DNA from: Stigmatella ashevillena
GTDB lineage: Bacteria; Myxococcota; Myxococcia; Myxococcales; Myxococcaceae
Assembly: GCF_028368975.1 (NCBI RefSeq)
Contig: NZ_JAQNDM010000002.1
Span: 6,752,425 to 6,816,424, forward strand
Direction of reading: 5' to 3'
Length of the DNA stretch: 64,000 nt
Within the stretch, counting starts at the first letter, position 1; each line of letters opens with the position of its first letter. Below are positions 18,747 through 55,437 of the stretch, in pieces. The position numbers and the translations under genes are program-made. The notes under the pieces are model-generated. The model had not been told where the DNA came from. It saw only the letters and a list, made by a program, of their open reading frames with translations, and ran no database searches.

Positions 18747-19586
18747 TCAGGACAGCCGCGAGCCCGTCATCTCCAGAATCGAATCGCCCGTGATGTCTTT
18801 GTACTTCTGTCCGGCGATCCCGCGGATCACCTCGGAGGTGGCATAGCGGAAGTGGGGCGTTTGGGCCGTGGCGGCCTCGACAATCACCTTCGCCACGTCA
18901 TCGCTGCTCTGGGCCACCTGCGCATACGCGCCCATGGCCGCGCGGATGTAGGCATCCAACATGGGCCGATACTCCTCGGAGACCGCAGGCCCTCCGGGCT
19001 TACGCCCCTGGACTGTGGCGACGAACTCGGTGGTCACCGCCCCGGGCTCAATGGCCACCAAGTGGATGCCCAGCCTCTTCGCCACAGGGGCGAGGCTCTC
19101 CAAGAACCCCTCGCAGGCGAACTTGGCAGCGCAGTACGCGTCGTTGAAGGGTTGGCCAATCAGTCCTCCCACGCTCGTGACGGTGAGGATGCGTCCCGAG
19201 CGGGCCTGGCGCATGGAGGGGAACACGGCCTGGGTCGTCCGCCACACGCCGAAGAAATTCACTTCCATCGTCTGACGCAGCTCCTCCTGAGTGGTCTGCT
19301 CCAGCGAGCCGAGATGACCCGCGCCCGCGTTGTTGACGAGCACGTCGATTCTTCCGTACTTCGCGAGCACCGCTTGGACGCATGCCTGGACCGAGGCGTC
19401 GCTCTGAACATCCAGCGGCAGGATGTCGAGCGTGACGCCCTCGTCACGGGCGCGGGCCTGCAAGGGCCCCGCCTTGCCGGTGTCCCGGAGTGTCGCGACC
19501 ACTTGAAAGCCGGCCTTGGCCAGATGGATGGCGGAGCTGAGCCCGATGCCCGAGGAGGTTCCCGTGATGAGGGCGATGCCAGACAT
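18747..19586 (-). CDS. Short-chain dehydrogenase/reductase
   Basis: 279 aa from the ATG at 19586 with a GGGAG site. Classical SDR features: cofactor motif TGTSSGIG (residues 8-15), NNAG, catalytic Ser in VTSVGG, and YCAAK as the YxxxK pair. The R in TLRDTG after the second strand suggests NADPH preference. Substrate unknown. It is on the same strand as the natural-product cluster but separated by a small secreted-protein gene and 120 bp, so membership is doubtful. It resembles generic oxidoreductases of the SDR type often annotated as retinol-dehydrogenase-like. Confidence 0.85.
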   Translation of the reverse strand: MSGIALITGTSSGIGLSSAIHLAKAGFQVVATLRDTGKAGPLQARARDEGVTLDILPLDVQSDASVQACVQAVLAKYGRIDVLVNNAGAGHLGSLEQTTQEELRQTMEVNFFGVWRTTQAVFPSMRQARSGRILTVTSVGGLIGQPFNDAYCAAKFACEGFLESLAPVAKRLGIHLVAIEPGAVTTEFVATVQGRKPGGPAVSEEYRPMLDAYIRAAMGAYAQVAQSSDDVAKVIVEAATAQTPHFRYATSEVIRGIAGQKYKDITGDSILEMTGSRLS

Positions 19587-19706
19587 GATTCTTCTCCCTG
19601 CGCTGTGTGGGTGCCGTCGAAGCTCATACCTCAATTCCCCGCGCCGGGTGGGGGTCCCTCCGCAAGCATGGCCAACGGCGGCCCCAGGCCTGAGTCGGCG
19701 GCTGAG

Positions 19707-20431: not shown

Positions 20432-21388
20432 TCAGGTGCGTCTCAAAACACAGCTCCGGCCTCCAGTCCGCAGGTTGATGGCAGGCAGCCGTGAGAGCGG
20501 TACCTCGAAGCCTGCGGCCTCGGCCTCCTCGCGCGAGAAGGGGATGGGGAACATGACGTTCTCCAGCACCACGAAGCCCCCGGGTGCTGTCAGCTCGTGG
20601 AAGCGCCGCAGGACGGCGGGCGAGTTGTTCTTCGCGTCGGAGTCCGGTTCGCCACGGGCGCACGAGCTCGACTCGAAGACCGCGGTCGCGACGATGAGCT
20701 CGAAAGGTCCAGGCAGCGCGGTGTGCAGAAAGTCGCCTTGAACAAGCCGGGGGTGTTCGATTTGCGGCCCCAGGTCGATCCCCAAGGCATCCGCGCCCAG
20801 CCGGATCAACTCGAGGAGCAGGCCGCCTTCCTGGGGGCCTACTTCGAGGATCTTGCGGCCCTGGAGAGGGCCCAGCAGGGCCTCTGCCCGGGTGAGCGCC
20901 TGGACTTGAAGAATGTGAAGGGAGCCGCCGAGACGGGTTTTCATGGCGGGCAACCGCGAGAGCAAGGAAGCCGCTTCCTCGGCGATGGCGTTCAGCTCGG
21001 CCCCCAGCGCGCGTGCCGCCTGGACTGAGCCCTCTTCAGAGGCCTGAAGCGCCCGGAGGTGGGCTTCCGCCCAGCCGCTGTCGATCAGCGCCTGAGACAG
21101 GGGCTGGTGAAAGCGGGCGTCTTCCGGGAAGACGGCCGTGTATTCCTGGAGGTGGAGGGGGAGCCACTTGGACCATTTGGGATCCGCGTGGTGCGCCGTG
21201 AGCTGGGTGCGTGCCGCGGGGCTGCCCGCCTCATGGACCGCAAGCTCCGTCAAAGCGCTGGCCGGGTTCGGCGCGGCGAGCAGGGTCTCCAGCAGGACGT
21301 CTCGCGCGGCCACCTGTCCCGCCGAGAGGTCCCGGAGTGCCTTCCACAGTTTCGGGTTCTGCTCCAGAGGTTCGGCTGTGCCCGTCAT
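20432..21388 (-). CDS. SAM-dependent methyltransferase of the natural-product cluster
   Basis: 318 aa from the ATG at 21388 (GGGAG seven bases upstream). The C-terminal half holds a class I methyltransferase fold: motif I ILEVGPQEGG near residue 183, an acidic DLG after the second strand, and FELIVATAVFES as motif II. The first 170 residues are a helical extension of unknown role. It begins 87 bp after the megasynthase stop on the same strand and probably methylates the released or carrier-bound product, for example the beta-amine or alpha-hydroxyl. That target is inferred: related microginins are often N-methylated, but no motif here fixes N versus O. Confidence 0.75.
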   Translation of the reverse strand: MTGTAEPLEQNPKLWKALRDLSAGQVAARDVLLETLLAAPNPASALTELAVHEAGSPAARTQLTAHHADPKWSKWLPLHLQEYTAVFPEDARFHQPLSQALIDSGWAEAHLRALQASEEGSVQAARALGAELNAIAEEAASLLSRLPAMKTRLGGSLHILQVQALTRAEALLGPLQGRKILEVGPQEGGLLLELIRLGADALGIDLGPQIEHPRLVQGDFLHTALPGPFELIVATAVFESSSCARGEPDSDAKNNSPAVLRRFHELTAPGGFVVLENVMFPIPFSREEAEAAGFEVPLSRLPAINLRTGGRSCVLRRT

Positions 21389-21475
21389 GGTTTCTCCCGC
21401 CCGCCGCAATCCACTTCCGAGGGCAGACCATTGTCTCACCCCCGTTGGACAGCATCCAGCGCAAGACCGGGACTT

Positions 21476-24400
21476 CTATGCGCGGTGCGTCCGGCTCTCC
21501 GAGAGGCAGCGGTTGACGTGGCCTGTGAGCACCTCCACGTTCGGAGAGTGAAACAGGCTGCCGTGGTCTCCGGGGACGAAGTGAACGTCCAGCGGCCCGG
21601 TGATGTGCCGCCGCACGTGCTCCAGAGCGGTCTTCAGCGACTCGTCGGTGTAGTCCTCGCGCGTCTGATCTGAAATCAGGAGGGTGACCGGGTGGGGGTA
21701 GACCGGCGGCTCATAGCGCAGAAGGATCCGGCTCATGACCTCTTCGTTGTTCCGCTTGGCCTCGAAGAGGCGCCGGAGCTCCCGCGGCTCCGTGCTGGCC
21801 GCCACGGCCTTAGACTCCTTCAGCTTCCGCAAAGCCAGGGTCCAACGCTCCTCGGGGGAGAGCGGCTCCAACTCGCTGTAGAGCGCCTGCAAGTCCCAAC
21901 CGGTTCCCCAGCCAATGTCCCGGCCCAGGAACCACACCATGTCGGCGAGGGCGGCGTCATACCGGGAAGGACCCGGCGGCACGGCATCGCCTCCGATGGG
22001 AGGATCCAGGAGCACGAGTCGGGCGATGGTCTGTCCCTGGGCCAGCAAGTGCTTCGCGATCTCGAACGCGAGCAGGCTTCCGGAGCAGAACCCTCCCAGG
22101 AAATAGGGACCCGTGGGCTGAATCTCCTGAAGCGCGCGCACGCAGTCCTGCACCACGCGGTGGAAGTTCTTCCAGTCGTAGCTCCAGCCGTCGAGCGCGA
22201 GGGCTCCCCCCGCCGTGCCTACCTCGATCAGCTCGGGGACGAGCGCGGGGGCCTGCAACCCATAGAGGGGCTGCTCTGGCTCCAGGCCCCTCGCCATGTT
22301 GAGGATTCCCACCACGACGTTGGAGGGGAAGATGCCACCGAGCTGTGCCGCGAAGAACAGGGGGCTGCGGCCTCCCTCCGGACGCACTTTCACGAGCGGC
22401 GTCTTGTCCTGTCCGGGGGCTACTGGGGCCTGGGTGAGGTTCTGCTGCGAGATGAACTGGGCGAGGTGGTCGATGGTCGGCTCCTCGAGCAGGATCGACA
22501 GCGGAACTTCCTGGCCGAGGCTCCGGCGGATCCGCGTCATGAGCCTCACCCCGAGCAGGGAGTTGCCGCCCAATTGGAAGAAATTGTCCGTCACGCCGAC
22601 GGGCCGGGTGCCGAGCACCTCTTCCCAGAGCTGCGCGAGTTCGGCCTCCAAGGGCGTGCGCGGGGCGACATAGACTTTCGAGAGCCACCGGCCCACGTCC
22701 AGCGCCGCCAAAGCCTTGCGGTCCACCTTGCCATTGGGCGTGAGCGGCAGTTCCTCCACGGCGATGATGGCGCCGGGGATCATGTAGCCCGGGAGCTTGT
22801 TCTGAAGGAACTGGGTCAGCTCTTCGGTGGGCGCGGCCTGCTCTCGCTGGAAGACGACATAGGCGAAGAGGCGTGAATCTCCCGGCTTCACTTCGCGGGC
22901 GATGAGCGCCACGTTGGCGACCGCTGGATGCTGGGACAGCGCGGCTTCGATGGCGCCCAACTCGATGCGGAACCCCCGGATCTTCACCTGGAAATCCGTG
23001 CGGCCGAAGAACTCGAGCGCGCCGTCCGGCCGGTAGCGCACCAGATCTCCTGTCCGGTAGAGGCGCGCTCCGGGCTGACCACTGAACGGATCGGGGACGA
23101 ACTTCTCTGCCGTCAACGAGGGCTGACTCAGGTAGCTCCGGGCCAGGCCCAGTCCCCCGATGAAGAGCTCTCCCGTGACTCCGAGGGGAACGGGTTGGAG
23201 GTGGGGGCTCAGGACGTAGAGCTGGGTGTTCGCGAGGGGCTGACCGAGGGGCTCCGAAGCATCTGCCCGCTCTGGGCCATGCTGGCCGGGTTGGACTCGG
23301 TGCGCGGAGGACCAGATCGTCGTCTCCGTGGGCCCATAGAGGTTCCAGACGCGCTTGCCCCGTGGGAGCAACTGGGCGGAGAGCTCCTTGCGCAGGGCTT
23401 CTCCCCCGCAGAGGATGTCCAGCTTCGGGTCGCCTTCCCAGCCGGCCTCGATGAGCATCCGCCACGTCGCGGGCGTTGCTTGCATCAAGGTGGGGCTTAT
23501 CCGGGCCATCTCGCGCTTCAGCAACTCGCCATCGGCCACGGTCTCGTGGTCCGCCACAGCCAACTGGGCACCCACGAGCAGCGGGAGGTAGAGCTCGAGC
23601 GCCGCGATATCGAACGAAATCGTCGTCACCGCCAAGAGGACATCCCGATCCGAGGGGCCAAGCAGGTCCCGCATGGATTCGAGCAAGTTGGTGACGGCGC
23701 CATGGAGAACCTGGATTCCCTTGGGCGTTCCCGTGGAGCCCGAGGTGTACATCACATACGCCACGTCCTCCGTCCCGGCGCCCCCTTCCAGGTTCTCCGT
23801 GGAGAGGGCGGACAGGGCCGCGTGCTCGTCGAGCAGCAGCCTCCGCACGTCGCCCTTGGGCAGGACGCCCACGGTCTTCCCGTGCGCCAGGAGCAGGGAC
23901 AGCCGCGAGTGGTCGAGCATGTGGGCCAGACGCTCGGCGGGGAAGGAGGGATCGAGCGGCACGTATGCCGCGCCGGACTTGAGGATGCCCAGAAGCCCAA
24001 TCACCATCTCCGGCGAGCGCTCGACACAGATGCCCACGAGCGAGCCGCGCCCAGCCCCCTGGGCGCGGAGGTGATGCGCGACCTGATTCGCCCGCGCGTT
24101 CAGCTCGCTGTAGGTCAGGCGCTTGTCCCCGAAGGTGAGTGCGGGCGCACGCGGTGTCCGCTGGACCTGGGCTTCAAACAGGCGGTGCACACACGCGCGG
24201 CCGTGGCGGGGGACGGCGGTGCGGTTCCACGCCGCCAGAAGCGCCTGCTCTTCTTCGAGAAGCAGAGGCACATCGCATAGTCGCTGGTCGGGCGCCGCGA
24301 CGATGCCCTCCAGCAACTTGTGGAAGTGGGCCACCATCCGCTGGATCGTCCCGGCATCGAACAGATCCGTGTTGTAGTCCCAGTCGAGGCTCATCTCGCC

Positions 24401-27400
24401 CCGCAGCTCGACGATGCTCAGGCCCAGTTCGGCCACCGCGAAGCTGATGGGCCGGGGGAGCCAGTCTGTCTCCAGCCCGGACATGGCGGGCGCGGCGACC
24501 GGGCGGTCCAGGTTGAAGGCCACCGTGACGAGGGGCGAGATGCTTGGATCTCTCGGCAGGCGCAGCTTCTCCAGCAGCGTGGCGAAGCGGTAGGCCTGGT
24601 GCTCGTAGCCGTCGAGGAGAACGCTCTTGATGGCCGCGAGATGCTCGGTAAATCGCGACTCACCGCGCACCTGCGTCCGGATGGGCAACAGGTTCGCGCA
24701 ATGGCCCACCATGCCCGCGCTGCCCTCGATGCTCCGGCCGGACGAGGGAACCCCGACGATGATGTCCTCCTGCCCCGTCACCCGGTGGAGCAGGCCGACA
24801 TAGGCGGCGAAGAGCGTCATGAAGGGGGTGGTGCCGTACCGCTGGCCCAGCTTCTTCAATGCCAGGCACAGCTCTGGGCCGACCCGGACGGTTAACCGGT
24901 TTGCCTGGAAGGATTTGACTGGGGGCCTGGGCCGGTCCGTGGGCAGTTGCAGCACGGGGAGCTGGCCGGAGAACTTCCCGAGCCAGTAGGCCTCATGCGC
25001 GGCCATCACCTCTCCCTGCATCTGCTGGTTTTGCCGCTCGACGAACTGGCGGAACTGCATGGGCGCGGGCAGCTCCGCGCGAGTCCCCTGGCAGGCGGCC
25101 GTGTAGAGCGCGCCAAGCTCATCGAGGATGACGGCCATCGACTGCCCATCACAGAAGATGTGGTGCGTGGCCAGACTCAGGATGTGCAGCCGGTCATGCA
25201 GCTTGAGCACCTGGGCCCGGAACAGCGGCCCGTTCACCAGATCAAAGCCGCTTTGGCTCTGATCGTCGAACCACCGGAGCACCTCCCGCTCGCGGGCTTC
25301 TTCCGTCACGTGGGAGAAGTCGACCTGGGAGAGGTCCACCTGGATGGAGCGATGGACGCGCTGGCGGTCGCCCTCGGCATTGATGGTGGTTCGCAGGGCT
25401 TCGTGCCGGTCCACGATGGACTGGACCGCCGTGCCCAAGGCGTGCAGGTGGAGGGGCCCCGTGAGTTTCAGGGCAATGGCTTGGTGTCCCCCCATCGAGT
25501 CCTCGTCCGCGGTCATCTGCGCGACGATCAGGAATTCCTGCTGTGACTCGGTCAGGGCGACGGTAACGTCTTCCGAGGGATTCGAAGGCCCGTCATCGCC
25601 TCCCCCCTTGGGAGAGGGGCCTCCCCCGCCGCCTTTCGGGCGGAACCGGTCCTTCAGTGCCACGAGCGAGGGCATGCTCGCCATCACCGAGCGCGGGTCC
25701 ACGCCGAAGTCCACGAAACAGGCGATCTCGTTGACCCCGAGCCCCTGCACGTGGCGGATGATCTCCGCGCAGGAGTCCGGCGTTCCAATCAAGGCGCTCG
25801 TGCGGACGTAGCGGTCGTACGCCATCGACAACATGTATTGCTTGTCTTCGGCCGTCAGCTTGTCCAGGTTGACGGGCAGCCCCTGGCTCTTGGCCAGGTT
25901 CTGGAAGAGCGAGAAGTGCGCTCCGAGGTAATCGCAGAAGGGGCCCCGAGCGGTGTTCCGGACGGTCTCGAGATCCTCTCCGAGGAAGGTGTGCATCAGG
26001 ACCGTGACCGTGCCGGACTGGGGATCATGGCCATGCTCGGCCAGGGCCTTCCGGTAGAGAGCGATGTTGCGCTCCAGGTCTTCGAGCGTCTGGCCCATCA
26101 GGTTGGTCAGGATGTGGGCGCCGATCTGTCCTGCCCGGACATACGTCTCTGGGTTGTTCACGACCGTGACCCAGAAGGGCAACTCGGATTGCTTCGGCAG
26201 CGGGAAGCAACTGACGTTGATCTCGTTCTTTCCACCGCCGCGCACCCGGATGGACTCTCCGCGCCACAGCTTTTGGATTGTCTCGATGCCCTGGTACATC
26301 AGCTCCCGGTGGTTGCCGAAGGCATCCGGCGCGAACACGAAATCATCCGGATGCCAACCGGACGCGAACGAGAGGCCCACCCGTCCCTTGGACAGGTTGT
26401 CCACCACGGACCATTCCTCCGCGACGCGGAGCGGGTGGTGCAGGGGCACGACGACGCTGCCCGCGCGCAACTTCAGGTGTTTCGTCTCCCGGGCCAGCGC
26501 GGAGCAGATGACGGAGGGGTTCGGAGAGAAGCCTCCGAACGGGTGGAAGTGGCGCTCTGGAACCCAGAGTGAGGAGAAGCCGTGCGCGTCGGCGAAGCGA
26601 GCGCTCTCGAACAGCAGGTCATACTTGTCGTCGCGGTACGCGGCCTCGTACTTGCCGAAGAAGTAGAGGCTGAACTCCATTCCCCTGTCGCGCACCGCGT
26701 CGAGTGGCCGGGCGCTTTTGGCCGACTCTTGCCCTCCGTCCGGAGACGAAGGCTTGGCGCGCTTGCGTTCCCAGATCTCTGTCCTCTGCCGCGCCTCCTG
26801 CGCGGGCGCACTGCTGGAGGCTGGGGGCTCGTTGCTGACAGGGCGAGGAGGAGCCGCCGGGGTGACCCAAGGGGGCGGTGACACGCCGGGCGGAAGCTCG
26901 GGCAGGAATCCGCCCTGGCGCAGCTCCTCCACGCTGCCCTGGACAGCTTGGAGGATGTGCTCGATGTCCGCCTCGGTGTGAGCCGTGGAGAGGAAGCACG
27001 TGCGCCCTTCCCAGACGTACACGCCCCGGTTGACCAGGTGGAAGAAGAACAGATCGAGGTTGCCCTTCAGCACGAACCGGAAGAGCGAGCCGAAGGAGAC
27101 CACCTGGATGGGAGCGCGTTGCGCCTCGAAGAAGGCGTTCAGCGTCGCGACGAGACGGGCTGTGCGCGCGTTCAGCTTCTCCTGGAGCTGAGGGCCTTGC
27201 TCCTTCAGGTGCGTGAGCACTGCCAGGGCGGTGGCGAGCGAGAGGGGGGGCTTGTTGAAGGTCCCCGCGAAGAACGTCCGTTCGGCTTCGGGATACGAGT
27301 CATCTCCGTAGCTCCACTGGCCTCCATCGATGCCATCCATGAAGCGCCGTTTCCCCGCCACGGCGGCCAAGGGCATGCCCCCCCCTGGAATCTTCCCGTA

Positions 27401-30400
27401 CGTCGAGAGGTCTGCCTGGATGCCGAAGTGGGCCTGGGCGCCGCCGGGGTGGACCCGGAAGCCCGTGACGATCTCATCGAAGATCAGCGCTGTTCCCGAG
27501 GCGAGCGTGAGCGCGCGCACCTCTTGGAGGAAGGCCCGGGGTTGCAGGTCCGGCCGACGGCTCTGCACGGGCTCTACCAGCACGGCGGCCAGCTCATGGG
27601 CGTGCTGCTTCAGGTAATCGATGGCGCTCTGCTCGCCGTAGTCGAGGACCACCACATCCCGGACGGCGCCCTTCGAGATTCCCGGAGCCACCGGGATGGC
27701 CTCATCGTCGCTGCCCTGGGAGCGCGCGAGGACGCCGTCATAGTGCCCATGGAACGAGCCCTTGAAGAGGACGATCCGCTCGCGGCCGGTGGCATTGCGA
27801 GCCAGGCGCAACGCGGTCATCACCGATTCGGTGCCCGACTGGCAGAAGGTGACCCGCTCGGTGCCGGTCAGCTCCGTGAAGAGTTCGGCGAGTTGACCGG
27901 CGCGCTCCGGCTGCGGCCCCACGCCGAAGCCACGCTCGAGCTGCTGCGCAATGGCTTGCTGGATGAATGGCGCGCTGTGGCCGAAGAGGTGAACCCCGAA
28001 CCCCATGGCGAGGTCGACGTATTCGTTGCCATCCACGTCCCAGATCCGGGCCCCCTGGTAGCGCGAGCCCACAATGGGATAGCTGATCTCCTTGATGGGC
28101 ATCCGGAACCCGGCCAGTGCCCGGTTGTCCGCGAGGGCGGGACGGTGTTTCTGGGCCCACGTTTTCGACCCCTGCGTCCGTTGTGCATAGCGCTCCATGA
28201 ACGCGTGCAGGTGCCGTTGCTGCCGCTGGTTCAACTCTCCCCCTGCGTCACCGGTCAATCGCGCGGCCGGGACAGGTGCATGGGGAGGTGCCGTCACCGG
28301 AGGGGCTTCGGCTCGCCGGGGACTCGGAGGAGGCGGGGCCTCGATGATCTCAGGCGCTGGGCTTTGCTCCTCCACTTCCATGGCAGGCGGCGTGGGTGCC
28401 GGGCTTGTCCCGGCTCTGTCCCGGAGCAGATCGAGCTGCTTGGAGACGATCTCAAGTTGCTGCGAGAAGAGCCGCTCGAGAGAACCCTCGGGAGCGGCTG
28501 GCAAGATCGGCCGGAGCGGGTGAGAGGGCGAGGAGTGGACGCCATTCGTCCCTGCGATGCCATTCTTGATCCGTGGTGCACCGTTGCTTGGCACCTCGTT
28601 TCGGGGTTGCTCCGCCTTCGCGACCAGAGGGTTCGGGGCACGGGAGATGGAGCAAGCGGCGGCCGGGGCCGACTCCAGCTTCAGTGTCGCCACGGCCGTG
28701 GGGGCGGGCCTGGAGATGGACTCTGCCGGAGGGAGAGCGGCTGCGGGGGCGGGCGGCTCGGCGTGCTCGGGAGGGAGGTGCTGTTCGATGTGGACCGCCA
28801 GCGCCTCGATGGTGGGCAGCTCCTCGAAGAGCTGCCGCATGGACAGCTTGAGCTTGTAATCGGCTTCGATCAGCCGGATGGCCTCGATGAGGGAGATGGA
28901 GTCCGCCCCCAGCTCCAGGAAAGAGGCCTGCGGATCGAGCTCGGATGGGGCGGCCCTGAGCAGGTTCGCCACCATCTTTCGCACCGCGCTCACGATGGAA
29001 TCCAACCGCTTCGGTTTGGCGGGCTCGGCGGCCTGGGGCTTGGACACGGTTTCTCCTGCCTCTGACTTGCTCACCTGAGGTGGCTCTTCGTTGAACCAGT
29101 AGTGCTTCCGCTCGAAGGGATAGTTGGGCAGGGAAACGCGCTGCCTCGGGTAATCCCTGTCAAAGCCCTTCCAGTCGATCTCCACCCCGCCTGCGTACAG
29201 AGAGCAGAGGGAGTCGAGCATCACGTCCCAATCGCCGCGCTTTTCGATCAGCGAGGGCAACCAGCCGGTTTTCACCTCCGGCAAGCACCGCGCGCCCAAG
29301 TGTGTCAGCAGAGGCTTGGGACCTATCTCCAGGAACAGCTCGCACCCTTGGGCTTGCAGGGCGCGGATGCCTTCCAGGAAGCGCACTGGCGCACGGGTGT
29401 GTCTCCTCCAGTAGGCGGCATCGGGGGCTTGCCCGGCGGGCAACGCCTCGCCCGTCACGTTCGAGATGAAGGGGATCCGGGGAGCCTGAGCCCGGATGCT
29501 CCCTGCCGTCCGCTCCAGGGGGGCGAGGACCGGCTCGATCAAGGGAGAGTGAAACGCGTGAGACACCCGGAGGGGCTGGCTCCTCACGCCTTCCGCCTCC
29601 AGGGCCGCCACGGCCGCTTCGAGCGCCTCCTTGCGCCCGGAGATGACAATGCTCTCCGGCCCATTGATGGCGGCGATGGCGAGCACGTCGGAGAACTTCT
29701 CGATCGCGGCGGCAACCCGGGACTCAGGGGCAAGAATGGCCGCCATGGCGCCATTCTGGGGGAGCGCCTGCATCAGGCGCGCGCGCTCGGCGGTGAGGCG
29801 CAGGCCGTCCTCCAGCCGGAACACGCCAGCGACACACGCGGCGGCCAGCTCTCCCACGCTGTGTCCGAGCACCGCCGCGGGCTCGACCCCCCAGGAACGC
29901 CACAGCTCGGCGAGCGCATACTCCAGTGCGAACAAAGCAGGCTGGGTGTAGGCGGTCTCATCGAGCGGTGAGGCCTGCCCCGGTTCGGGGTAGAGCACCT
30001 GGAGCAGTCTCTGGCCGAGGAGCGGACGGAGGATCTTGTCACACCGGTCGAGGGCATCCCGGAAGGTGGGCTGCGTCTCATAGAGCTGGCGCCCCATGCC
30101 GGGGTACTGGGCGCCCTGGCCTGTGAACAGGAAGGCCACCTTGGGGCGCTTGCGGCGGTTGACCTGGGCGTAGGCCGCTTCCGGTGCCTGTCCGCGGGCG
30201 AAGGCCTCCAGCCGCTCGCTCAGCTCCGAGGATGAACCGAAGGGCACGGCCAGCCGGTGGGCGAAGTTCGAGCGCCCCGTGTTGGCGCTGTAGCCGAGGT
30301 CACCCGGCGACACCCCAGGCTGTCCGGCGAGGTGCTCGTGGTGGCGGTGGGCCATCTCTCGGAGCGCGCCCTCGCTCTTCGCGCTCAAGGTGAGCACGTG

Positions 30401-31729
30401 CCGGGGTCTCTCCGGTATGTCGTCCTCGGCTTGCTGCGCCGCGGGAGCCCCTTCCAGGACCAGGTGGGCATTGGTTCCCCCGAAGCCGAACGAGCTCACT
30501 CCTGCCAGCGCGGGTCCAGACACCTCTGGCCACGGTTGGAGGGACTGCTGGACCCGGAGGGGGATCTTGTCGAAGTGGATGTACGGGTTGGGCTCGTTGA
30601 AGTGGAGGCTGGGAGGCAGGTGCCGGTGCTTCAGAGACAGCGCCACTTTGATCAGCCCCGCGATGCCGGCCGCGGCTTCCAGGTGACCAATGTTGGTCTT
30701 GACCGAGCCCAGCGCGCAGACGTTCCCGGCAGGGCGGCCCTGGCCCACCACCGAGGCGAGTGACTTCACCTCGATGGGGTCCCCGAGCTTCGTTCCCGTC
30801 CCATGGGCCTCGATGTACTGCACCTGGGAGGGGGCGACCCGGGCATCCTCGTAGGCTTGTCGAAGCACGGCCTCCTGGGCCGCCGGGTTCGGCGCGGTGA
30901 GCCCATTGCTGCGGCCATCCTGGTTGACCGCTCCACCGCGCACGAGGGCGTAGATGGAATCGCCATCCTCCAGTGCCTTGGACAGCAGCTTCAGCACCAC
31001 GATGCCGGCGCCCTCACTGCGGACGTACCCATTGGCCTTCGCGTCGAACGCCTTGCAGCGGCCATCCGCGGCCATGAAACCGGACTTCGAGTAGCCCACC
31101 GTCACCCAGGGTGACAGCACGAGCTGGACCCCGCCCGCGACGGCGAGGGCCGAGTCTCCGCTCCACAGGCTTTTGCAGGCCAGGTGCACGGCGACGAGCG
31201 AGGACGAGCACGCCGTGTCCACCACCAGGCTGGGGCCCTGGAAGTCGAACAGGTACGAGATGCGGTTCGCGGCGATGCAGTTCGTGTTGCCCGTTCCCAC
31301 GTGTGCATCGATGTTCCGCGTGTCCCGGCACAGCAGCGTGTAGTAGTCGTAGCTGGACATCCCGACGAAGACGCCGGTCTTCGTTCCCCCGAGCCGCTCC
31401 GGGGCCTGTCCCGCATCCTCCAGCGCCTCCCAGGTGACCTCCAGCAGCAGCCGCTGCTGGGGATCCATGGTCGTCACCTCTCGCGGGGCGATTCCGAAGA
31501 ACTGGGGATCGAACTGATCCACCTGCTCCAGGAACCCGCCCCAACGGGTGCTCATCTTTCCGGGGGCGGCGGGGTCCGGATCATAGAACGCGTCGATGTC
31601 CCACCGGCCGGGGGGGACCGGCGTGATGGCATCCACACCGTCGTGGAGTAGTTTCCAGAATGCCCTCGGGTCCTTGGCACCCGGAAAACGGCATCCCAGA
31701 CCGATGATCGCTACGGGCTCGCGGTTCAT
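21476..31729 (-). CDS. Hybrid PKS-NRPS megasynthase KS-AT-ACP-AMT-MOX-C-A-PCP-TE
   Basis: 3417 aa. KS 1-430 (Cys in DTACSSS near 173, EAHGTGT, NIGHLE). AT about 530-830 (GHSVGE near 622; HAFH, so malonyl-CoA). ACP Ser in LGADSIS near 943; no KR/DH/ER. Class III aminotransferase 1200-1590 with PLP lysine in YGKIPGGG near 1446. Luciferase-like FMN monooxygenase 1680-2025 (MEFSLYFFGKYE, VPERHFHPFGG). C 2060-2490 (HHIFCDG). A 2530-3010 (YTSGSTGTPKG; code read as DILQLGLIWK, glycine-like). PCP LGGNS near 3055. TE with GFCSG near 3215, Cys at the nucleophile position. It would extend an acyl chain with malonate, transaminate the beta-keto group, hydroxylate the alpha carbon and join glycine. ATG 31729; 26 bp after the P450 gene. 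Confidence 0.95.
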   Translation of the reverse strand: MNREPVAIIGLGCRFPGAKDPRAFWKLLHDGVDAITPVPPGRWDIDAFYDPDPAAPGKMSTRWGGFLEQVDQFDPQFFGIAPREVTTMDPQQRLLLEVTWEALEDAGQAPERLGGTKTGVFVGMSSYDYYTLLCRDTRNIDAHVGTGNTNCIAANRISYLFDFQGPSLVVDTACSSSLVAVHLACKSLWSGDSALAVAGGVQLVLSPWVTVGYSKSGFMAADGRCKAFDAKANGYVRSEGAGIVVLKLLSKALEDGDSIYALVRGGAVNQDGRSNGLTAPNPAAQEAVLRQAYEDARVAPSQVQYIEAHGTGTKLGDPIEVKSLASVVGQGRPAGNVCALGSVKTNIGHLEAAAGIAGLIKVALSLKHRHLPPSLHFNEPNPYIHFDKIPLRVQQSLQPWPEVSGPALAGVSSFGFGGTNAHLVLEGAPAAQQAEDDIPERPRHVLTLSAKSEGALREMAHRHHEHLAGQPGVSPGDLGYSANTGRSNFAHRLAVPFGSSSELSERLEAFARGQAPEAAYAQVNRRKRPKVAFLFTGQGAQYPGMGRQLYETQPTFRDALDRCDKILRPLLGQRLLQVLYPEPGQASPLDETAYTQPALFALEYALAELWRSWGVEPAAVLGHSVGELAAACVAGVFRLEDGLRLTAERARLMQALPQNGAMAAILAPESRVAAAIEKFSDVLAIAAINGPESIVISGRKEALEAAVAALEAEGVRSQPLRVSHAFHSPLIEPVLAPLERTAGSIRAQAPRIPFISNVTGEALPAGQAPDAAYWRRHTRAPVRFLEGIRALQAQGCELFLEIGPKPLLTHLGARCLPEVKTGWLPSLIEKRGDWDVMLDSLCSLYAGGVEIDWKGFDRDYPRQRVSLPNYPFERKHYWFNEEPPQVSKSEAGETVSKPQAAEPAKPKRLDSIVSAVRKMVANLLRAAPSELDPQASFLELGADSISLIEAIRLIEADYKLKLSMRQLFEELPTIEALAVHIEQHLPPEHAEPPAPAAALPPAESISRPAPTAVATLKLESAPAAACSISRAPNPLVAKAEQPRNEVPSNGAPRIKNGIAGTNGVHSSPSHPLRPILPAAPEGSLERLFSQQLEIVSKQLDLLRDRAGTSPAPTPPAMEVEEQSPAPEIIEAPPPPSPRRAEAPPVTAPPHAPVPAARLTGDAGGELNQRQQRHLHAFMERYAQRTQGSKTWAQKHRPALADNRALAGFRMPIKEISYPIVGSRYQGARIWDVDGNEYVDLAMGFGVHLFGHSAPFIQQAIAQQLERGFGVGPQPERAGQLAELFTELTGTERVTFCQSGTESVMTALRLARNATGRERIVLFKGSFHGHYDGVLARSQGSDDEAIPVAPGISKGAVRDVVVLDYGEQSAIDYLKQHAHELAAVLVEPVQSRRPDLQPRAFLQEVRALTLASGTALIFDEIVTGFRVHPGGAQAHFGIQADLSTYGKIPGGGMPLAAVAGKRRFMDGIDGGQWSYGDDSYPEAERTFFAGTFNKPPLSLATALAVLTHLKEQGPQLQEKLNARTARLVATLNAFFEAQRAPIQVVSFGSLFRFVLKGNLDLFFFHLVNRGVYVWEGRTCFLSTAHTEADIEHILQAVQGSVEELRQGGFLPELPPGVSPPPWVTPAAPPRPVSNEPPASSSAPAQEARQRTEIWERKRAKPSSPDGGQESAKSARPLDAVRDRGMEFSLYFFGKYEAAYRDDKYDLLFESARFADAHGFSSLWVPERHFHPFGGFSPNPSVICSALARETKHLKLRAGSVVVPLHHPLRVAEEWSVVDNLSKGRVGLSFASGWHPDDFVFAPDAFGNHRELMYQGIETIQKLWRGESIRVRGGGKNEINVSCFPLPKQSELPFWVTVVNNPETYVRAGQIGAHILTNLMGQTLEDLERNIALYRKALAEHGHDPQSGTVTVLMHTFLGEDLETVRNTARGPFCDYLGAHFSLFQNLAKSQGLPVNLDKLTAEDKQYMLSMAYDRYVRTSALIGTPDSCAEIIRHVQGLGVNEIACFVDFGVDPRSVMASMPSLVALKDRFRPKGGGGGPSPKGGGDDGPSNPSEDVTVALTESQQEFLIVAQMTADEDSMGGHQAIALKLTGPLHLHALGTAVQSIVDRHEALRTTINAEGDRQRVHRSIQVDLSQVDFSHVTEEAREREVLRWFDDQSQSGFDLVNGPLFRAQVLKLHDRLHILSLATHHIFCDGQSMAVILDELGALYTAACQGTRAELPAPMQFRQFVERQNQQMQGEVMAAHEAYWLGKFSGQLPVLQLPTDRPRPPVKSFQANRLTVRVGPELCLALKKLGQRYGTTPFMTLFAAYVGLLHRVTGQEDIIVGVPSSGRSIEGSAGMVGHCANLLPIRTQVRGESRFTEHLAAIKSVLLDGYEHQAYRFATLLEKLRLPRDPSISPLVTVAFNLDRPVAAPAMSGLETDWLPRPISFAVAELGLSIVELRGEMSLDWDYNTDLFDAGTIQRMVAHFHKLLEGIVAAPDQRLCDVPLLLEEEQALLAAWNRTAVPRHGRACVHRLFEAQVQRTPRAPALTFGDKRLTYSELNARANQVAHHLRAQGAGRGSLVGICVERSPEMVIGLLGILKSGAAYVPLDPSFPAERLAHMLDHSRLSLLLAHGKTVGVLPKGDVRRLLLDEHAALSALSTENLEGGAGTEDVAYVMYTSGSTGTPKGIQVLHGAVTNLLESMRDLLGPSDRDVLLAVTTISFDIAALELYLPLLVGAQLAVADHETVADGELLKREMARISPTLMQATPATWRMLIEAGWEGDPKLDILCGGEALRKELSAQLLPRGKRVWNLYGPTETTIWSSAHRVQPGQHGPERADASEPLGQPLANTQLYVLSPHLQPVPLGVTGELFIGGLGLARSYLSQPSLTAEKFVPDPFSGQPGARLYRTGDLVRYRPDGALEFFGRTDFQVKIRGFRIELGAIEAALSQHPAVANVALIAREVKPGDSRLFAYVVFQREQAAPTEELTQFLQNKLPGYMIPGAIIAVEELPLTPNGKVDRKALAALDVGRWLSKVYVAPRTPLEAELAQLWEEVLGTRPVGVTDNFFQLGGNSLLGVRLMTRIRRSLGQEVPLSILLEEPTIDHLAQFISQQNLTQAPVAPGQDKTPLVKVRPEGGRSPLFFAAQLGGIFPSNVVVGILNMARGLEPEQPLYGLQAPALVPELIEVGTAGGALALDGWSYDWKNFHRVVQDCVRALQEIQPTGPYFLGGFCSGSLLAFEIAKHLLAQGQTIARLVLLDPPIGGDAVPPGPSRYDAALADMVWFLGRDIGWGTGWDLQALYSELEPLSPEERWTLALRKLKESKAVAASTEPRELRRLFEAKRNNEEVMSRILLRYEPPVYPHPVTLLISDQTREDYTDESLKTALEHVRRHITGPLDVHFVPGDHGSLFHSPNVEVLTGHVNRCLSESRTHRA

Positions 31730-31755
31730 CTTGTCTCGTCTCTGAGGCAGAGCGT

Positions 31756-32976
31756 TCAGGGATTGAGGAGAACGGGGAGCGTCTGCGGCCCCCGGAAGAT
31801 GATCTCCTTCTGCCAGTCGATCGTTCCAGGCACGAGCGCCATGTCAGGGAACTCCCGGACGAGCGTGCTGATGGCGATCTGTCCCTCGATGAGGGCCAAC
31901 GCGGCCCCGAGGCAGTAGTGGATGCCTCCGGAGAAGGCGAGGTGGCGGTTGTCCTTGCGGGTGATGTCGAACCGGTCCGGCTCCGGGAACTGAGAGGGAT
32001 CCCGGTTCGCCGAGCCGAGCGAGAAGTAGATCAAATCCCCTGCCGGGATGGTTTTCCCGTGGAGGGTGATGTCCTTTTTGGGCACCCGCGTGTTGAGCTG
32101 CACCGGGCTGTCGTAGCGGAGAATCTCATCGATGGCGCCGCGGATGAGCGAGGGGTCCTGCTTCAGTCGCTCGAACTCATCCCGGTTGCGCAGCAGCGCG
32201 AGCACGCCGTTGCTGATGAGGTTCACCGTCGTCTTCTCGCCCGCGATAAACAGCAGCATGCAGACCGAGAGCATCTCGTCCTCGGTGAGCTTGTCGCCCT
32301 GATCCGTGACGGCGATGAGGCTGCTGATGAGGTCATCCTGGGGGTTGCGGCGGCGCTCCGCGAAGAGCTGCCGGAAGTATTCCAGGAACTCCTGGGCCAC
32401 GCGGTTCATCTCCGCGTACTGCTCGAGCGACCGGAGCGGATCCAGAACGCGGGACAAGCCATCGGCCCATCGCGTGACGGAGCCGTGCGCCTCCTCCGGC
32501 ACCCCGAGCATGCTCGCAATCATGGTGACCGCCAGCGGGCAGGCCAGCTCCCCGACGATCTCCATCTTGCCGGTGCTCCTCACCCGGGCGATGAGCCGGT
32601 CCACCATCTCCTGCACGCGGGGACGCAGGGACTCGACGGCGCTGGGGGTGAACGAGCGGTTGACCAGCCCCCGGAGCCGGGTGTGGTCGGGTGGATCGCA
32701 CAGCATGAGCCAGCGGCGCATCGCCTGGGCGAGCGTGCGCAGCTCGCCGGTCTTGTTTCGCTCGAGGAACTGGCTCTTGCGCTCGATGCGCGTCGGGATG
32801 TCGAAGACGCCGAAGGTGTTGTCCCGCAGGAGGACCTTGATGTCGGCGTAGCGGGTGATGACCCAGGCGCCCATGACGGTCCGGTGGACCGGCTCCTCGT
32901 CGCGAAGGCGCGTGTAGACCGGGTAAGGGTCTGCGTGGAAGGCGGGATCAAACAGGTTGAACTTGATGGGATTCAA
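31756..32976 (-). CDS. Cytochrome P450 of the natural-product cluster
   Basis: 406 aa from a TTG at 32976, whose bases overlap the preceding stop (TTGA). The next Met in frame is too deep to preserve the fold, so TTG is the only reasonable start. P450 hallmarks: I-helix AGEKTT, K-helix ExxR in EILR, and haem ligand loop FSGGIHYCLG with Cys near residue 350. Soluble, typical bacterial class I length. It needs external ferredoxin partners, none encoded nearby. Sandwiched and coupled between the acyl ligase and the megasynthase, so it probably oxidises the fatty chain or the finished product. Confidence 0.93.
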   Translation of the reverse strand: MNPIKFNLFDPAFHADPYPVYTRLRDEEPVHRTVMGAWVITRYADIKVLLRDNTFGVFDIPTRIERKSQFLERNKTGELRTLAQAMRRWLMLCDPPDHTRLRGLVNRSFTPSAVESLRPRVQEMVDRLIARVRSTGKMEIVGELACPLAVTMIASMLGVPEEAHGSVTRWADGLSRVLDPLRSLEQYAEMNRVAQEFLEYFRQLFAERRRNPQDDLISSLIAVTDQGDKLTEDEMLSVCMLLFIAGEKTTVNLISNGVLALLRNRDEFERLKQDPSLIRGAIDEILRYDSPVQLNTRVPKKDITLHGKTIPAGDLIYFSLGSANRDPSQFPEPDRFDITRKDNRHLAFSGGIHYCLGAALALIEGQIAISTLVREFPDMALVPGTIDWQKEIIFRGPQTLPVLLNP

Positions 32977-35021
32977 GGCTTCAGCTCGTTCACGAGGTGC
33001 CGGGCCAGAATCTCCGCGCTGGGATGCTCCCAGAACAGGGTGGGCTCGAACTCCCGGCCCAGCCAGCCCGCCAGTTCGCCCGTGAGGCTCACGGCGACCG
33101 CGGAGTCCAGGCCGTAGCGCTCGAAGGGATCCTTGATGTCGATGTCCTCCGCCTTGATGCCCAGGTACTGGGCCATTCGGCCGAGGATCCAGTTCTGGAT
33201 GTCCTCCTCGGTACGTCCGGTCTGGGACGCCGTCCATGCCGGGTCCGCCGCGATGTCTTCTTGGAGGTTCTCCACCCACTGGCCCACGGCGTTCAGACTC
33301 TTGTCGCGGAAGCCATTGCGGCAGGCATGGCGCTGGATCTTCCCGCTGGAGGTCTTCGGGATGCTGCTCGTCTTGAGGAGCACCACCGCGTGCACATGCA
33401 ACTCGTGAGACTCCGACACGGCCTGCCGGATGCACCCCACCACGTCGTCGACGTCGAGGTTGCGCAGGTAGCTGCGCTCCACTTCCTGGACGATGACCAG
33501 GCGCTCCTCGTCCTCCACCGTGACGGAGAACGCGGCGCCGCCGCTCGCCTTCAGCGCCGGATGGCACTCCTCCACCGTCTGCTCGATGTCCTGGGGGTAG
33601 TGGTTGCGCCCCCGGATGATGATGATGTCCTTCAGGCGGCCGGTGATGACGAGGTCCTCCCCGCGGAAGAACCCGAGATCCCCCGTGCGCAGGAACGGAC
33701 CCTCGCCCGTGTCCTGGAGGTAGGCGCGGAACGTCTCCTCTGTCTGAACAGGCCGGTTCCAGTACCCTTGGGCCACGCTGGCGCTGGAGACCCAGATCTC
33801 TCCGACTTGGTTTCTCTCGCACACGGTCCGGTGCGTGGGCTCCACGATGCGGACCTTCTCGAGCCAGGTGCGGCCCGAATACACGAGCGCGTGCGTTCCA
33901 TCCCCACCGGGACCGGCCGGTCCGCCGTCCACCTCGACGATGCGGCCTTGCTCCAGTGCATCCGCCTGGACGTTGCAGATGAAAGGCTTTTGCTTGGGAA
34001 TGCCACCCGAGACCACCAGCGTGGTCTCCGCCATGCCGTAGCAGGGATAGAGGGCCTCGGGTTTCAGGCCATAGTCCTTGAAGGTCTCCATGAAGCGCAG
34101 GACGGTGGTGGCGCGGATGGGCTCGGCACCATTGAAGGCCACCTCCCAACTGCTGAGGTCCAGCCCCATTCGCTGCTCGGGAGACACTTTTCGGGCGCAC
34201 AAGTCATAGGCGAAGTTCGGCCCACCGCTCGTGGTCGCCCGGTAGCGGGAAATCGCATGCAGCCAGCGCGCCGGCTTCTGGATGAACGCCGCGGGGGGCA
34301 TCAGCACGGACTGGATGCCCAGATAGAGCGGCTGCAACACATTGCCGATGAGCCCCATGTCGTGAAACAGCGGCAGCCAGCCGACGAAGACCGTCCGCTC
34401 GCTGTGACCGAAGGTCTGCTGAATGATCCGCTCGTTGTGCAGCACGTTCCCATGGGAGACCATCACGCCCTTGGGGGTACCGGTCGAACCCGAGGTGTAT
34501 TGGAGAAACGCCAGGGTATCGCCGTGGACGTCCGGCGCCTTCCACGTGTCCTGCGACTCCACGGGGATGTTGTCGGTCGAGAGCCAGCGCATCTTGCCCA
34601 GCTCCGGCACGCGCTCGAAGAGGACCTCCAGGTTGGACAGCAGGGGAGAGGTGGTGAGCACCCATTCCGCGCCCGCGTCCTCGATGACGGTCTTCAGCCG
34701 GCGAAGGTTTTGATTGGTCCGAGGCGGGTAGGCGGGAACGGCCACCACGCGGGCATAGAGACACCCCAGAAACGCGACAATGAACTCCAGCCCCGGCGGA
34801 TACAGGAGCAGCGCCCGTTGATTCGCGGCCCCCAGCGCTTGCAGCCGGGCTGCGACCGCACGCACGCGCTGCTCGAGCTGGCCGAAGGTCAGGACTTGGG
34901 ATTCGTTCTCCCCATCGTCCAGGAAGATGAAGGCCGTCCTGTCGGGGTGACGGGCGGCGCGCTCTCGCAGCAACGCGATCAGTGTGGGGAACTCAGCGGC
35001 TTCAATCGGTTGAGCAGACAT
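32973..35021 (-). CDS. Fatty-acyl-AMP ligase with fused acyl carrier protein
   Basis: 682 aa from the ATG at 35021; the open frame extends further upstream but without a better start. Residues 1-580 are an adenylate-forming ligase (LQYTSGSTGTPKGVMVSHGN, GRLKDIIIIRGRNHYPQDIE), with the sequence style of FAALs, which load fatty acids on carriers instead of CoA. Residues about 600-682 are a carrier domain with Ser in YGLDSAVAV. It should activate a medium or long fatty acid and hold it on its own ACP for the KS of the megasynthase. First gene of the cluster; promoter and operator-like repeat lie about 140-175 bp upstream. Confidence 0.93.
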   Translation of the reverse strand: MSAQPIEAAEFPTLIALLRERAARHPDRTAFIFLDDGENESQVLTFGQLEQRVRAVAARLQALGAANQRALLLYPPGLEFIVAFLGCLYARVVAVPAYPPRTNQNLRRLKTVIEDAGAEWVLTTSPLLSNLEVLFERVPELGKMRWLSTDNIPVESQDTWKAPDVHGDTLAFLQYTSGSTGTPKGVMVSHGNVLHNERIIQQTFGHSERTVFVGWLPLFHDMGLIGNVLQPLYLGIQSVLMPPAAFIQKPARWLHAISRYRATTSGGPNFAYDLCARKVSPEQRMGLDLSSWEVAFNGAEPIRATTVLRFMETFKDYGLKPEALYPCYGMAETTLVVSGGIPKQKPFICNVQADALEQGRIVEVDGGPAGPGGDGTHALVYSGRTWLEKVRIVEPTHRTVCERNQVGEIWVSSASVAQGYWNRPVQTEETFRAYLQDTGEGPFLRTGDLGFFRGEDLVITGRLKDIIIIRGRNHYPQDIEQTVEECHPALKASGGAAFSVTVEDEERLVIVQEVERSYLRNLDVDDVVGCIRQAVSESHELHVHAVVLLKTSSIPKTSSGKIQRHACRNGFRDKSLNAVGQWVENLQEDIAADPAWTASQTGRTEEDIQNWILGRMAQYLGIKAEDIDIKDPFERYGLDSAVAVSLTGELAGWLGREFEPTLFWEHPSAEILARHLVNELKP

Positions 35022-35162
35022 GGCTACACACTCTCGCGAAACAGGTGAGCTTTGCCTACATACGCATGGCGGTGACAAGGACACGGACAAGGCAGGGGCC
35101 ACTGCCGAGGACAGCGTGGGTGCCCCTTCACCCTTCCCGTATGGACGGCTTTGTTGACTGAC

Positions 35163-35191
35163 AGCATACAAACCCATCAGGTCACTGACAA
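35163..35191 (-). promoter_or_regulatory. Candidate sigma-70 promoter of the PKS-NRPS cluster
   Basis: On the minus strand, TTGTCA (35191-35186) and TATGCT (35168-35163) are separated by exactly 17 bp. The first matches TTGACA at five of six positions, the second TATAAT at four of six. Transcription would start near 35156, leaving a leader of about 135 bases before the ligase ATG. No other comparably good element was seen in the 242-bp gap. Confidence 0.55.
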
Positions 35192-35198
35192 CCAGTGA
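35182..35198. promoter_or_regulatory. Inverted repeat overlapping the cluster -35 box (putative operator)
   Basis: TCACTG-ACAAC-CAGTGA is a perfect 6-bp inverted repeat with a 5-bp spacer. It covers the proposed -35 element, an ideal place for a repressor. No regulator gene lies adjacent, so the factor would be encoded elsewhere. Confidence 0.5.
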
Positions 35199-35263
35199 AC
35201 TGTGGATTTACACGTGTCGCGAGATGGCTTGTCGGCGAAGGGGAGGTGAGTCAGGGGCGCGGC

Positions 35264-36055
35264 TCAGCGAGAGCGGGCCATCAGCGAGGCGGGGACATTG
35301 GTTGCCGTGAGTCCCCCGTCCACCGCGAGGTCCTGCCCGGTGATGAAGGAAGCCTTGTCACTGAGGAGGAAGGCGACGAGCCCGGCCACCTCCTGGGGGA
35401 CTCCCACGCGGTGCATGGGTTGGAACGAGGAGGCGAAGGCGCGGCCCATGCGATCATCGAGCCGCCAGCCAGCGGTGGCCATCTCGGACTCGACGATGCC
35501 AGGGCTCACCGTGTTGGCGCGGATGTTCTTCTGGGCGTACTCCACCGCCACCCCCCGTGTGAGGGCGGCAAGCCCCGCCTTGGAGGCGCTGTAGGCGGCA
35601 AGCCCCGGCATGGCGCGCACCGCGCTGACGGAGGCACAGTTGACGATGGCGCCTCCGCCTCCCGCGAGCATGGCCTTGAGCTGGTATTTCATGCACCAGA
35701 AGGCACTGCGCACGTTGGTGGCCATGACGGTGTCGTACTCGTCGGTGCTCATCTCGATGAACGCCTTCGAGAGACTGGTGCCCGCGTTGTTGAAGGCGCA
35801 GTCCAACCGCCCGTAGGTGGTGAGGGCGGTCTGGACCAGCGCCTCGACATCGCGCTCGGCAAGGACATCGGCCGTGACCCAGGTGGCCTCGCCCCCTTGG
35901 GCCTGGATGAGGGCGATGAGCTCCCGGCCTTTGTCCTCGCGCCGTGCGCCCGCGACGATCTTAGCCCCCTCGGCGGCCAGGGTGAGGGCCGTGGCCCAGC
36001 CGATGCCCGAGCTCGCGCCCGTCACGAGGGCGACTTTGTCCTGGAGGATGCCCAT
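35264..36055 (-). CDS. Short-chain dehydrogenase/reductase
   Basis: 263 aa from ATG 36055 with AGGAG upstream. SDR motifs: TGASSGIG (residues 12-19), NNAG, Ser in NCASVSA, YSASK as YxxxK, and the PGIVES loop. ARR after the second strand suggests NADP(H). The C-terminal [11 protein letters not shown] is typical of the FabG-like classical group. Same strand as and 242 bp upstream of the acyl ligase promoter. It could supply a redox step to the cluster, but its own ribosome-binding site and the intervening promoter make independent function equally likely. Confidence 0.85.
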
Positions 36056-52634: not shown

Positions 52635-53653
52635 GGAAGACCCTGCGTTGCGGAGAGTTTTGGTTCACGACCCTTCTGGTCTGCGTGTCTCTTTGGACAG
52701 TTCCCGTATGGGCGCAGAAGCCTGCCCCTTCCCTCGCAAGTCGGCCCGCATGGGCGCAGAATGTTACTCCTGCGCAGCAGAAGGTGGCGTCCGACCTGCT
52801 TGAGCAGGGAAACAGCTTGCTGAAGGATTCCGTCTTCGTTGAGGCGGAGAAGAAGTATGTCGAGGCACTCAAACACTGGAAACATCCCGCCATTTACTAC
52901 AATTTGGCTTTGGCGTTGCTCAACCTCGACCGTCCATCCGAAGTCTATGAGTACATGGTGGCGTCTACCAAATATGGTGAAGCGCCTCTCGGGGAAGAGC
53001 GGTTCAAGCATGCGCGGAAATACATTGAGCGTATCGAGAAGGAGAGTGCGTGGGTGAACATCACCTGCGCATCTGATACCACCGCGACGTTGAAGCGAGA
53101 TGGCGAGCTCACGCCCATCAACTGCGCTCAATTCGAGCAGATGCTGCGCCCCGGGAGCTACACGATCAGTTCGTTTGATAACGGAGAGCCTGTCCCTGAC
53201 ACAACGCTCACGCTGGCGGCGGGGGAACGGGCCAATTACCGACTTGAAATTGGGTCCGGACGCCGCTGGTCAGCATGGAAGCCTTGGGCCGTCGTGGGCG
53301 CAGGAGTGGCTCTGGCCGTGGGGGGAAGGCTTGTTCATACGAAGGCCCGTGATGAGTACAAAGCCTTCGATGACGAAGTGTCTCGCTGCTTCACCGCGAA
53401 GGACAATGGAAATCGGAGTTGTGAAGTGTCTTCTGAACTTGGATCCATGCGCAGACGTGCCGATACATTACAACGGGTTGCGGTGGGTACCTTTGTCGTT
53501 GGAGGTGCCGCACTCATTACGGGTGGGCTCATGCTGTACGTCAATCGCGCCTACCCTCAAACCAGTCTCATTCTTCTTCAGGATAAAAAGTTGTCAGTCG
53601 CGCCTGTCGTGAAGAGAGGTGAGAACGGCATTTTGGCATCCCTTCAGTTCTGA
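52631..53653 (+). CDS. Exported TPR-type protein with two C-terminal membrane helices
   Basis: 340 aa, translationally coupled to the kinase (ATGA at 52631-52634). Signal peptide at 1-28 (FWFTTLLVCVSLWTVPVWA). Residues 48-135 hold two TPR-like units (EQGNSLLKDSVFVEAEKKYV, YYNLALALLNLDRPSEVYEY). Residues 140-210 are beta-rich with a Cys pair. Hydrophobic segments at about 220-235 and 283-303 anchor it. Such TPR/PEGA-like partners commonly sit behind myxobacterial kinase genes and may bind the kinase's extracytoplasmic part. That pairing is inferred from coupling. Confidence 0.75.
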
Positions 53654-53660
53654 GGCTCTT

Positions 53661-55274: not shown

Positions 55275-55307
55275 TGGTAGCTAAATCCTGTTGCAGGAGG
55301 CGGCATG

Positions 55308-55337
55308 CCGAAGCGATCTCTTGGCTTTCGGTTGTTT
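55308..55337 (+). terminator. Possible intrinsic terminator of the kinase operon
   Basis: CCGAAGC (55308-55314) can pair with GCTTTCGG (55324-55331), leaving one bulged T, and is followed by TTGTTT. It lies 33 bp after the lipoprotein stop. The U-tract is short, so confidence is modest. A perfect CGGCATGCCG palindrome overlaps at 55301-55310. Confidence 0.4.
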
Positions 55338-55437
55338 GCTCCCCGGCTCCGCAGGCGAATGCAGCGCACTTTCAGGTGTGCTGCTATGGGCTCGCGCTTG
55401 AGGGGTCGCCTCTCTGCTGAAGTGCGAAGTTCGAACT

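Follow-up and report, generated by a model that had tools for sequence, protein, structure and literature searches.

What does an assembly line with a single amino acid module make, and in which form does its product leave the enzyme? This question is raised by a compact gene cluster of Stigmatella ashevillena, a hybrid of polyketide synthase (PKS) and non-ribosomal peptide synthetase (NRPS), which we analyzed within a stretch of 64,000 nucleotides (contig NZ_JAQNDM010000002.1, positions 6,752,425 to 6,816,424; in the following the window). A preliminary description, made from the letters of the DNA, had read the locus as a myxobacterial cluster for a microginin- or bestatin-like 3-amino-2-hydroxyacyl-glycine. 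We propose that four genes, encoding a short-chain dehydrogenase/reductase (SDR), a fatty acyl-AMP ligase fused to an acyl carrier protein (FAAL-ACP), a cytochrome P450 and a PKS-NRPS protein, build a 3-amino-2-hydroxyacyl-glycyl chain on the peptidyl carrier protein (PCP). From sequence, we put the probability of this reading at about 0.7, a figure that refers to the chain and excludes the mode of its release. The window genome comprises 10.95 Mb in two contigs, and its 13 matches to MYXO-CTERM (TIGR03901), compared with none in 14 control genomes, give good support to a myxobacterial host.

The cluster lies on the minus strand and extends from 21476 to 36055, compared with 20432 to 35021 in the preliminary description. 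Its first gene encodes the SDR oxidoreductase (263 aa, 35264-36055, Pfam adh_short_C2), followed by the FAAL-ACP loading protein (682 aa, 32973-35021; AMP-binding, AMP-dom_DIP2-like and PP-binding). We set the start of the latter at MSAQPIEAAEF, with a further in-frame ATG upstream at 35177; it matched the NCBIfam FAAL models below their cut-offs. The P450 gene (406 aa, 31756-32976, Pfam p450) has a TTG start that overlaps the FAAL stop by four bases. The last gene (21476-31729) encodes 3417 residues with ketosynthase (KS), acyltransferase (AT), ACP, class-III aminotransferase (AmT), luciferase-like monooxygenase (LLM), condensation (C), adenylation (A), PCP and thioesterase (TE) domains, i.e., KS-AT-ACP-AmT-LLM-C-A-PCP-TE in one protein. 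Domain and motif searches thus confirmed the composition given before, and the motifs sought in the large protein were intact: Cys and His of the KS, GHSVGE...HAFHS in the AT (residues 533-818, 29276-30133), two carrier serines, the Lys of the AmT (domain match at residues 1218-1572, 27014-28078) and HHxxxDG in the C domain. A second KS-AT, AmT, LLM, C, A-PCP or TE was not found in the 64-kb window (tblastn, E 1e-5), where the only cross-match was that of the A domain with the FAAL at 27% identity; the single NRPS module described earlier was hence corroborated.

Unless stated otherwise, we read the following steps from domain identity. The FAAL would adenylate a free fatty acid and load it onto the fused ACP, and the P450, possibly together with the SDR, may oxidize the acyl chain. 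The P450 matched many solved P450s. The best of these included PksS, CYP267B1 and, from 3ejb, the BioI chain, in what we take to be a complex with an acyl-ACP; together with the gene position, these relatives suggest that the P450 acts on the ACP-bound chain. KS-AT-ACP would add one malonyl unit and leave a 3-keto group, the HAFHS motif of the AT being presumably of the malonyl type. The AmT would then convert the 3-keto group to the 3-amine, the LLM would set a hydroxyl at C2, C-A-PCP would add glycine, as the match of the A pocket suggests, and the TE with its Cys nucleophile would release the product either as free acid or as a ring.

The grouping of the four genes is more than chance, as five further genomes carry them in unchanged order and they show low ratios of non-synonymous to synonymous substitution (dN/dS). 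Together with the window, these genomes, i.e., G005 from the same genus, G050, G064 and G070 from genus g12 and G069 from genus g8, hold six clusters with the same A-domain code. Between the window and G005, dN/dS according to Nei-Gojobori was 0.11 for the SDR, 0.13 for the FAAL, 0.11 for the P450 and 0.11 for the PKS-NRPS gene, with 0.10 for the flanking methyltransferase gene; compared with G050, values of 0.17-0.27 were obtained. Cluster pieces of G050, G064, G070 and G069 were 69-88% identical to the window, and the broken LLM start of G069 was 59% identical. In G069, a frameshift within the LLM (L164, 13953-15085), either a sequencing error or a broken gene, splits the large gene of an otherwise complete cluster. 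Flanks of 1.7 to 14.3 kb a side of the clusters from genera g1, g8 and g12 had no common gene beyond a 33% SDR match (blastp; pairs with E <= 1e-12, >30% identity and >80 aligned residues). In tblastn, rows with >28% identity were considered in one comparison and with ≥36% in the other, and the flank search was repeated without identity limit.

We also followed the AmT-LLM pair itself. The whole AmT-LLM query was matched in 4 of 39 genomes, namely the own genome (G000), G005 (95%), G006 (70%) and G009 (52%), the last on a 5.4-kb contig on which the cluster is therefore cut. Seven of 58 family genomes, own genome included, matched at E <= 1e-180, and G069 matched over residues 1-544 only, owing to its frameshift. 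Outside the family, no full-length match was among those listed for 16 genomes of the same order. At L031 7481-18211 and L034 383-1651, G006 carries a related one-module cluster and, about 48 kb away from it, a second AmT-containing PKS-NRPS. The one-module cluster has a different A pocket and ends in an unrelated Ser hydrolase, after which an ABC transporter gene follows; the P450 is present in G006 at 55% identity.

The limits of the cluster became visible at an empty site. In G001 and G004, both of the same genus, an S9 peptidase, YebC, an M3 peptidase, a methyltransferase and a hypothetical gene stand together with no cluster, and in G004 71 bases (hand count) separate the M3 stop from the methyltransferase ATG. 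In both the window and G005, the cluster lies at the same site between M3 peptidase and methyltransferase; either an insertion or a loss in G001 and G004 may account for the difference. The methyltransferase (318 aa, 20432-21388, minus strand) adjoins the cluster in G005, whose cluster occupies the same site, and had no match in the fetched flanks of the clusters in G006, G050, G064, G070 and G069 (tblastn, no identity limit). Because it is contiguous with the M3 peptidase at the empty site and is not found beside these five clusters, we conclude that it is a chromosomal neighbor and exclude it as a tailoring gene, although it had been counted to the cluster before. The SDR, on the other hand, had been overlooked in a gene list that started at the FAAL-ACP. 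It stands before the FAAL in all six clusters that share the A code (70-94% amino acid identity in the other five), and no match to it was obtained in the 20 kb surrounding the empty site of G001 and G004; as it precedes the FAAL in six of six cases, we assign it to the cluster.

Two further neighbors were considered and rejected. The upstream M3 peptidase came into question as a self-resistance target, given that microginins inhibit zinc peptidases, and was excluded since it also stands beside the empty site; relatives of 53-56% identity occur in G002, G003 and G006, and the window neighbors were not found beside them in the fetched stretches (6.7 kb for G003). A second SDR gene downstream (18747-19634) is kept in G005, but has only matches of 33-58% near the clusters of G050 and G006 and none near those of G064, G070 and G069.

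Which amino acid is added? At what we take to be the nine positions of the Stachelhaus scheme, the pocket of the A domain (residues 2518-3001, 22727-24178) reads D-I-L-Q-L-G-L-I-W, identical to DhbF (5u89) in an alignment read by eye and with two differences from AB3403 (4zxh). All six clusters share these nine positions as well as the tenth, the Lys of NGKVDR, and G006 has other letters at the nine. A review lists 5u89 and 4zxh as Gly-activating and names the latter AB3404 (PMC11253843). The pocket string itself was not found in a literature search, and the assignment hence rests on the solved domains. Glycine as substrate of the A domain is well supported by these sequence matches, and glycine as the only amino acid of the product, as proposed in the preliminary description, was retained.

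A line of this length could nevertheless be incomplete, with a trans-acting module elsewhere adding residues, or it could add glycine more than once, as has been proposed for an iterative Gly-adding adenylation domain in the acinetin 505 cluster (PMC5376624). Against this stands the TE, which is fused behind the sole PCP. Moreover, no other PKS or NRPS match was obtained in a search that covered the window and the cluster flanks of G050, G064, G070, G069 and G006 (between 1.7 and 21.8 kb on each side; tblastn at E 1e-5) and not the rest of the genome. We thus regard a longer product as improbable.

As regards release of the chain, the nucleophile stands out. The TE (residues 3188-3404, 21518-22168) has a Cys, C3215 in GGFCSGS, and does so in six of six clusters, whereas Ser is the nucleophile in 17 of the 18 readable PF00975 matches of the window genome (21 matches, three of them unreadable with a pattern that allowed Ser or Cys only; three of the 18 below the family cut-off). 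In ObiF, Cys is reported to favor formation of the ring, and hydrolysis predominates in the Ser mutant (PMC6668435); SulM, which forms a β-lactam, also uses Cys (PMC11298585). The Cys nucleophile therefore makes cyclization a serious rival to release as free acid, and the product would then be a cyclic lipodipeptide. Attack of the 3-amine on the glycyl thioester would yield a seven-membered diazepanedione, that of the 2-hydroxyl a six-membered morpholinedione, and a hydroxyl set by the P450 could close a larger lactone. However, the best solved match of the TE was AB3403 (4zxh), which aligned at the Cys, at the Asp in LLD and at the His, with a second Asp (LLISD) further on, as far as a sequence alignment can place them. 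AB3403 is described as uncharacterised and as having a Cys with the Asp in the ordinary position, whereas the Asp is shifted in ObiF and SulM (PMC11298585). As a Cys is by itself no proof of ring closure, we consider cyclization instead of hydrolysis possible, yet clearly the less probable outcome. Slightly more doubtful still is the complete scheme of a conserved myxobacterial pathway in which the Cys TE closes a P450-oxidized 3-amino-2-hydroxyacyl-glycine into a small ring, be it diazepanedione, morpholinedione or lactone.

For the head group, we compared the AmT and LLM domains with their relatives. Two AmT patterns found at least 577 stretches encoding a relative in named genomes, and 80 loci were kept, 11 of which encoded an AmT together with an LLM in a single frame (L042-L051 and L072, with the LLM of L050 cut off). 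One of them, L043 from Microcystis, is from its layout presumed to be mic, the microginin synthetase. The LLM of the window (residues 1686-2025, 25655-26674) is of the MupA/Atu3671 type and scored 525 bits with TIGR04020, compared with a curated cut-off of 244. In a tree of 33 LLM rows, from which L050 (LLM cut at the locus end) and L001, L002 and L004 (repeats of L007-L009) were left out, 14 AmT-linked rows fell on one side of one branch (93/99, just below the starred level). The LLMs of the window, G005 and G006 adjoined those of Cylindrospermum and Microcystis (95/87, starred). In the AmT tree (83 rows, quick method, matches over >380 positions only), the AmTs of the same three genomes stood among assembly-line AmTs, including those of Bacillus and Microcystis; sequences of G050, G064, G070 and G069 are in neither tree. 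With the LLM in the AmT-linked group and the AmT among assembly-line AmTs, the trees leave standing the earlier proposal that an AmT followed by a monooxygenase builds the 3-amino-2-hydroxyacyl group. The window genome encodes three more MupA/Atu3671-type monooxygenases above the cut-off (L007, L008 and L009), none of them with such an AmT in frame.

A number of points speak against 3-amino-2-hydroxyacyl-glycine as the product. The AmTs of the window, G005 and G006 join that of Brasilonema L052, which has no LLM (SH-aLRT 98), and LLM-paired AmTs form no single group, with 8 changes on the AmT tree. The AmT tree hence argues for 3-amination and gives no independent support for the 2-hydroxyl, i.e., 2-hydroxylation rests on the LLM. 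Furthermore, the AmT-monooxygenase pair of microsclerodermin was given another role in a review, in which it oxidizes a 3-hydroxyl and then aminates the resulting 3-keto group (PMC6163206). The different pocket and terminal hydrolase of G006 imply that the product class varies, and the Cys TE may release a free acid or a ring.

Some assembly lines make 3-amino starters, as in iturin and laxaphycin. Were the LLM inactive or acting elsewhere, the product would accordingly be a plain 3-aminoacyl-glycine, and the nearest AmTs do come from cyanobacterial proteins without LLM. Cystomanamide from Cystobacter is moreover described with 3-amino-9-methyldecanoic acid (PMC9581180). This alternative is opposed by the high TIGR04020 score of the LLM and its grouping with Microcystis and Cylindrospermum. 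Moreover, LLM loss does occur: in Microcystis viridis L056 (10001-12676), the AmT shares 97.6% identity with its counterpart in L043 and is followed directly by a C domain with no LLM, so that an LLM without use could have been lost. The iturin-type order with an AmT and no LLM before the C domain was not found here, where the LLM is present; in the Bacillus loci L062 and L064 the AmT is alone in frame. We hence judge a plain 3-aminoacyl product unlikely and keep 3-amino-2-hydroxyacyl-glycine as the favored chain.

Similar AmT-monooxygenase pairs in other systems are consistent with this assignment. The pair was assigned to the 3-amino-2-hydroxy acyl group in puwainaphycin (PMC4219810) and, in a preprint with structures from nuclear magnetic resonance, in Floridanema peptides (PMC13252402). 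Like the window protein, PuwE is described to combine a PKS module, AmT, monooxygenase and then one NRPS module in a single protein; unlike it, PuwE begins with Val and is followed by another NRPS line that takes over the chain, FAAL and ACP are separate, and an extra reducing and methylating PKS is present (PMC4219810). The microginin synthetase shares FAAL and ACP loading, the LLM group and a tailoring enzyme that stands between the loading and PKS parts, and the order KS-AT-ACP-AmT-LLM recurs in the presumed mic locus L043. The mic clusters of Microcystis and Planktothrix are reported to have a methyltransferase of their own, a dimetal halogenase and between two and six NRPS modules (PMC12250027). 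In the microginin type, this halogenase acts on the loaded acyl chain, and the product is a linear peptide that bears 3-amino-2-hydroxydecanoyl at its N-terminus. In contrast, the window cluster has one Gly module with a TE, fewer than the at least two NRPS modules of the microginin type, as well as an SDR, the Cys nucleophile and no methyltransferase of its own. No halogenase family was found among the window proteins scanned, and the P450 takes the place of the halogenase.

Among myxobacteria, the microsclerodermin synthetase of Jahnella and Sorangium likewise has an AmT-monooxygenase pair, there in the first NRPS module; compared by description, it differs in that it starts from phenylacetate, employs several PKS genes, has Asn in this module and yields a cyclic hexapeptide (PMC6163206). 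Cystomanamide (ctm, Cystobacter fuscus), another lipopeptide from myxobacteria, likewise contains a 3-amino fatty acid, the name of which, however, contains no 2-hydroxyl, and its line has five NRPS modules (PMC9581180). The AB3403 module (4zxh) shares C-A-PCP-TE, Gly and the Cys nucleophile and is the best solved match of both the TE and the A pocket region, but has no PKS, AmT or LLM. The preliminary description had held so short a lipo-amino acid to be unusually small for the logic and undescribed from myxobacteria. The AmT-monooxygenase pair as such was known from them before in microsclerodermin (PMC6163206), and a 3-amino fatty acid in cystomanamide (PMC9581180). A one-module 3-amino-2-hydroxyacyl-glycine from myxobacteria was not described in the literature excerpts found; a review counts seven PKS-NRPS clusters in one myxobacterium, and the present cluster may be listed in its supplement.

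Microginin and bestatin bind zinc through a 3-amino-2-hydroxyacyl head, which makes inhibition of metallo-aminopeptidases the first candidate activity, by analogy, for the product. Ada, which we take to be 3-aminodecanoyl without a hydroxyl, occurs in some microginins, and as a lead only, the L056/L043 pair may be set against these Ada microginins. Microginins 99-A and 99-B, which contain Ada and are also chlorinated, are reported to show no leucine aminopeptidase inhibition at 100 μg/mL (PMC12250027).

Elsewhere in the window, a 551-aa cysteine-rich repeat protein (53619-55274) shows, by eye, a CGDGxxxxxExCDDGN-like pattern and lies in a region of much lower GC content (0.515 at 54001-56000) with a GC skew of 0.27. 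A TPR-CHAT protein of 1133 aa (9856-13257) coincides with strong GC and AT skews (0.352 and 0.291 at 10001-12000).

The cluster thus represents a very short assembly line of AmT-LLM logic, consisting of head group, one glycine and release. If the domains predict its product correctly, the cluster could tell whether the head and one glycine suffice for peptidase inhibition, and both the AmT-LLM step and the action of a Cys TE in release could be studied in a model system of small size. Should the Cys TE close a ring, the pathway would yield a class of cyclic lipodipeptides built on the microginin head group. As related species have retained the four genes as a unit, the product can be looked for.

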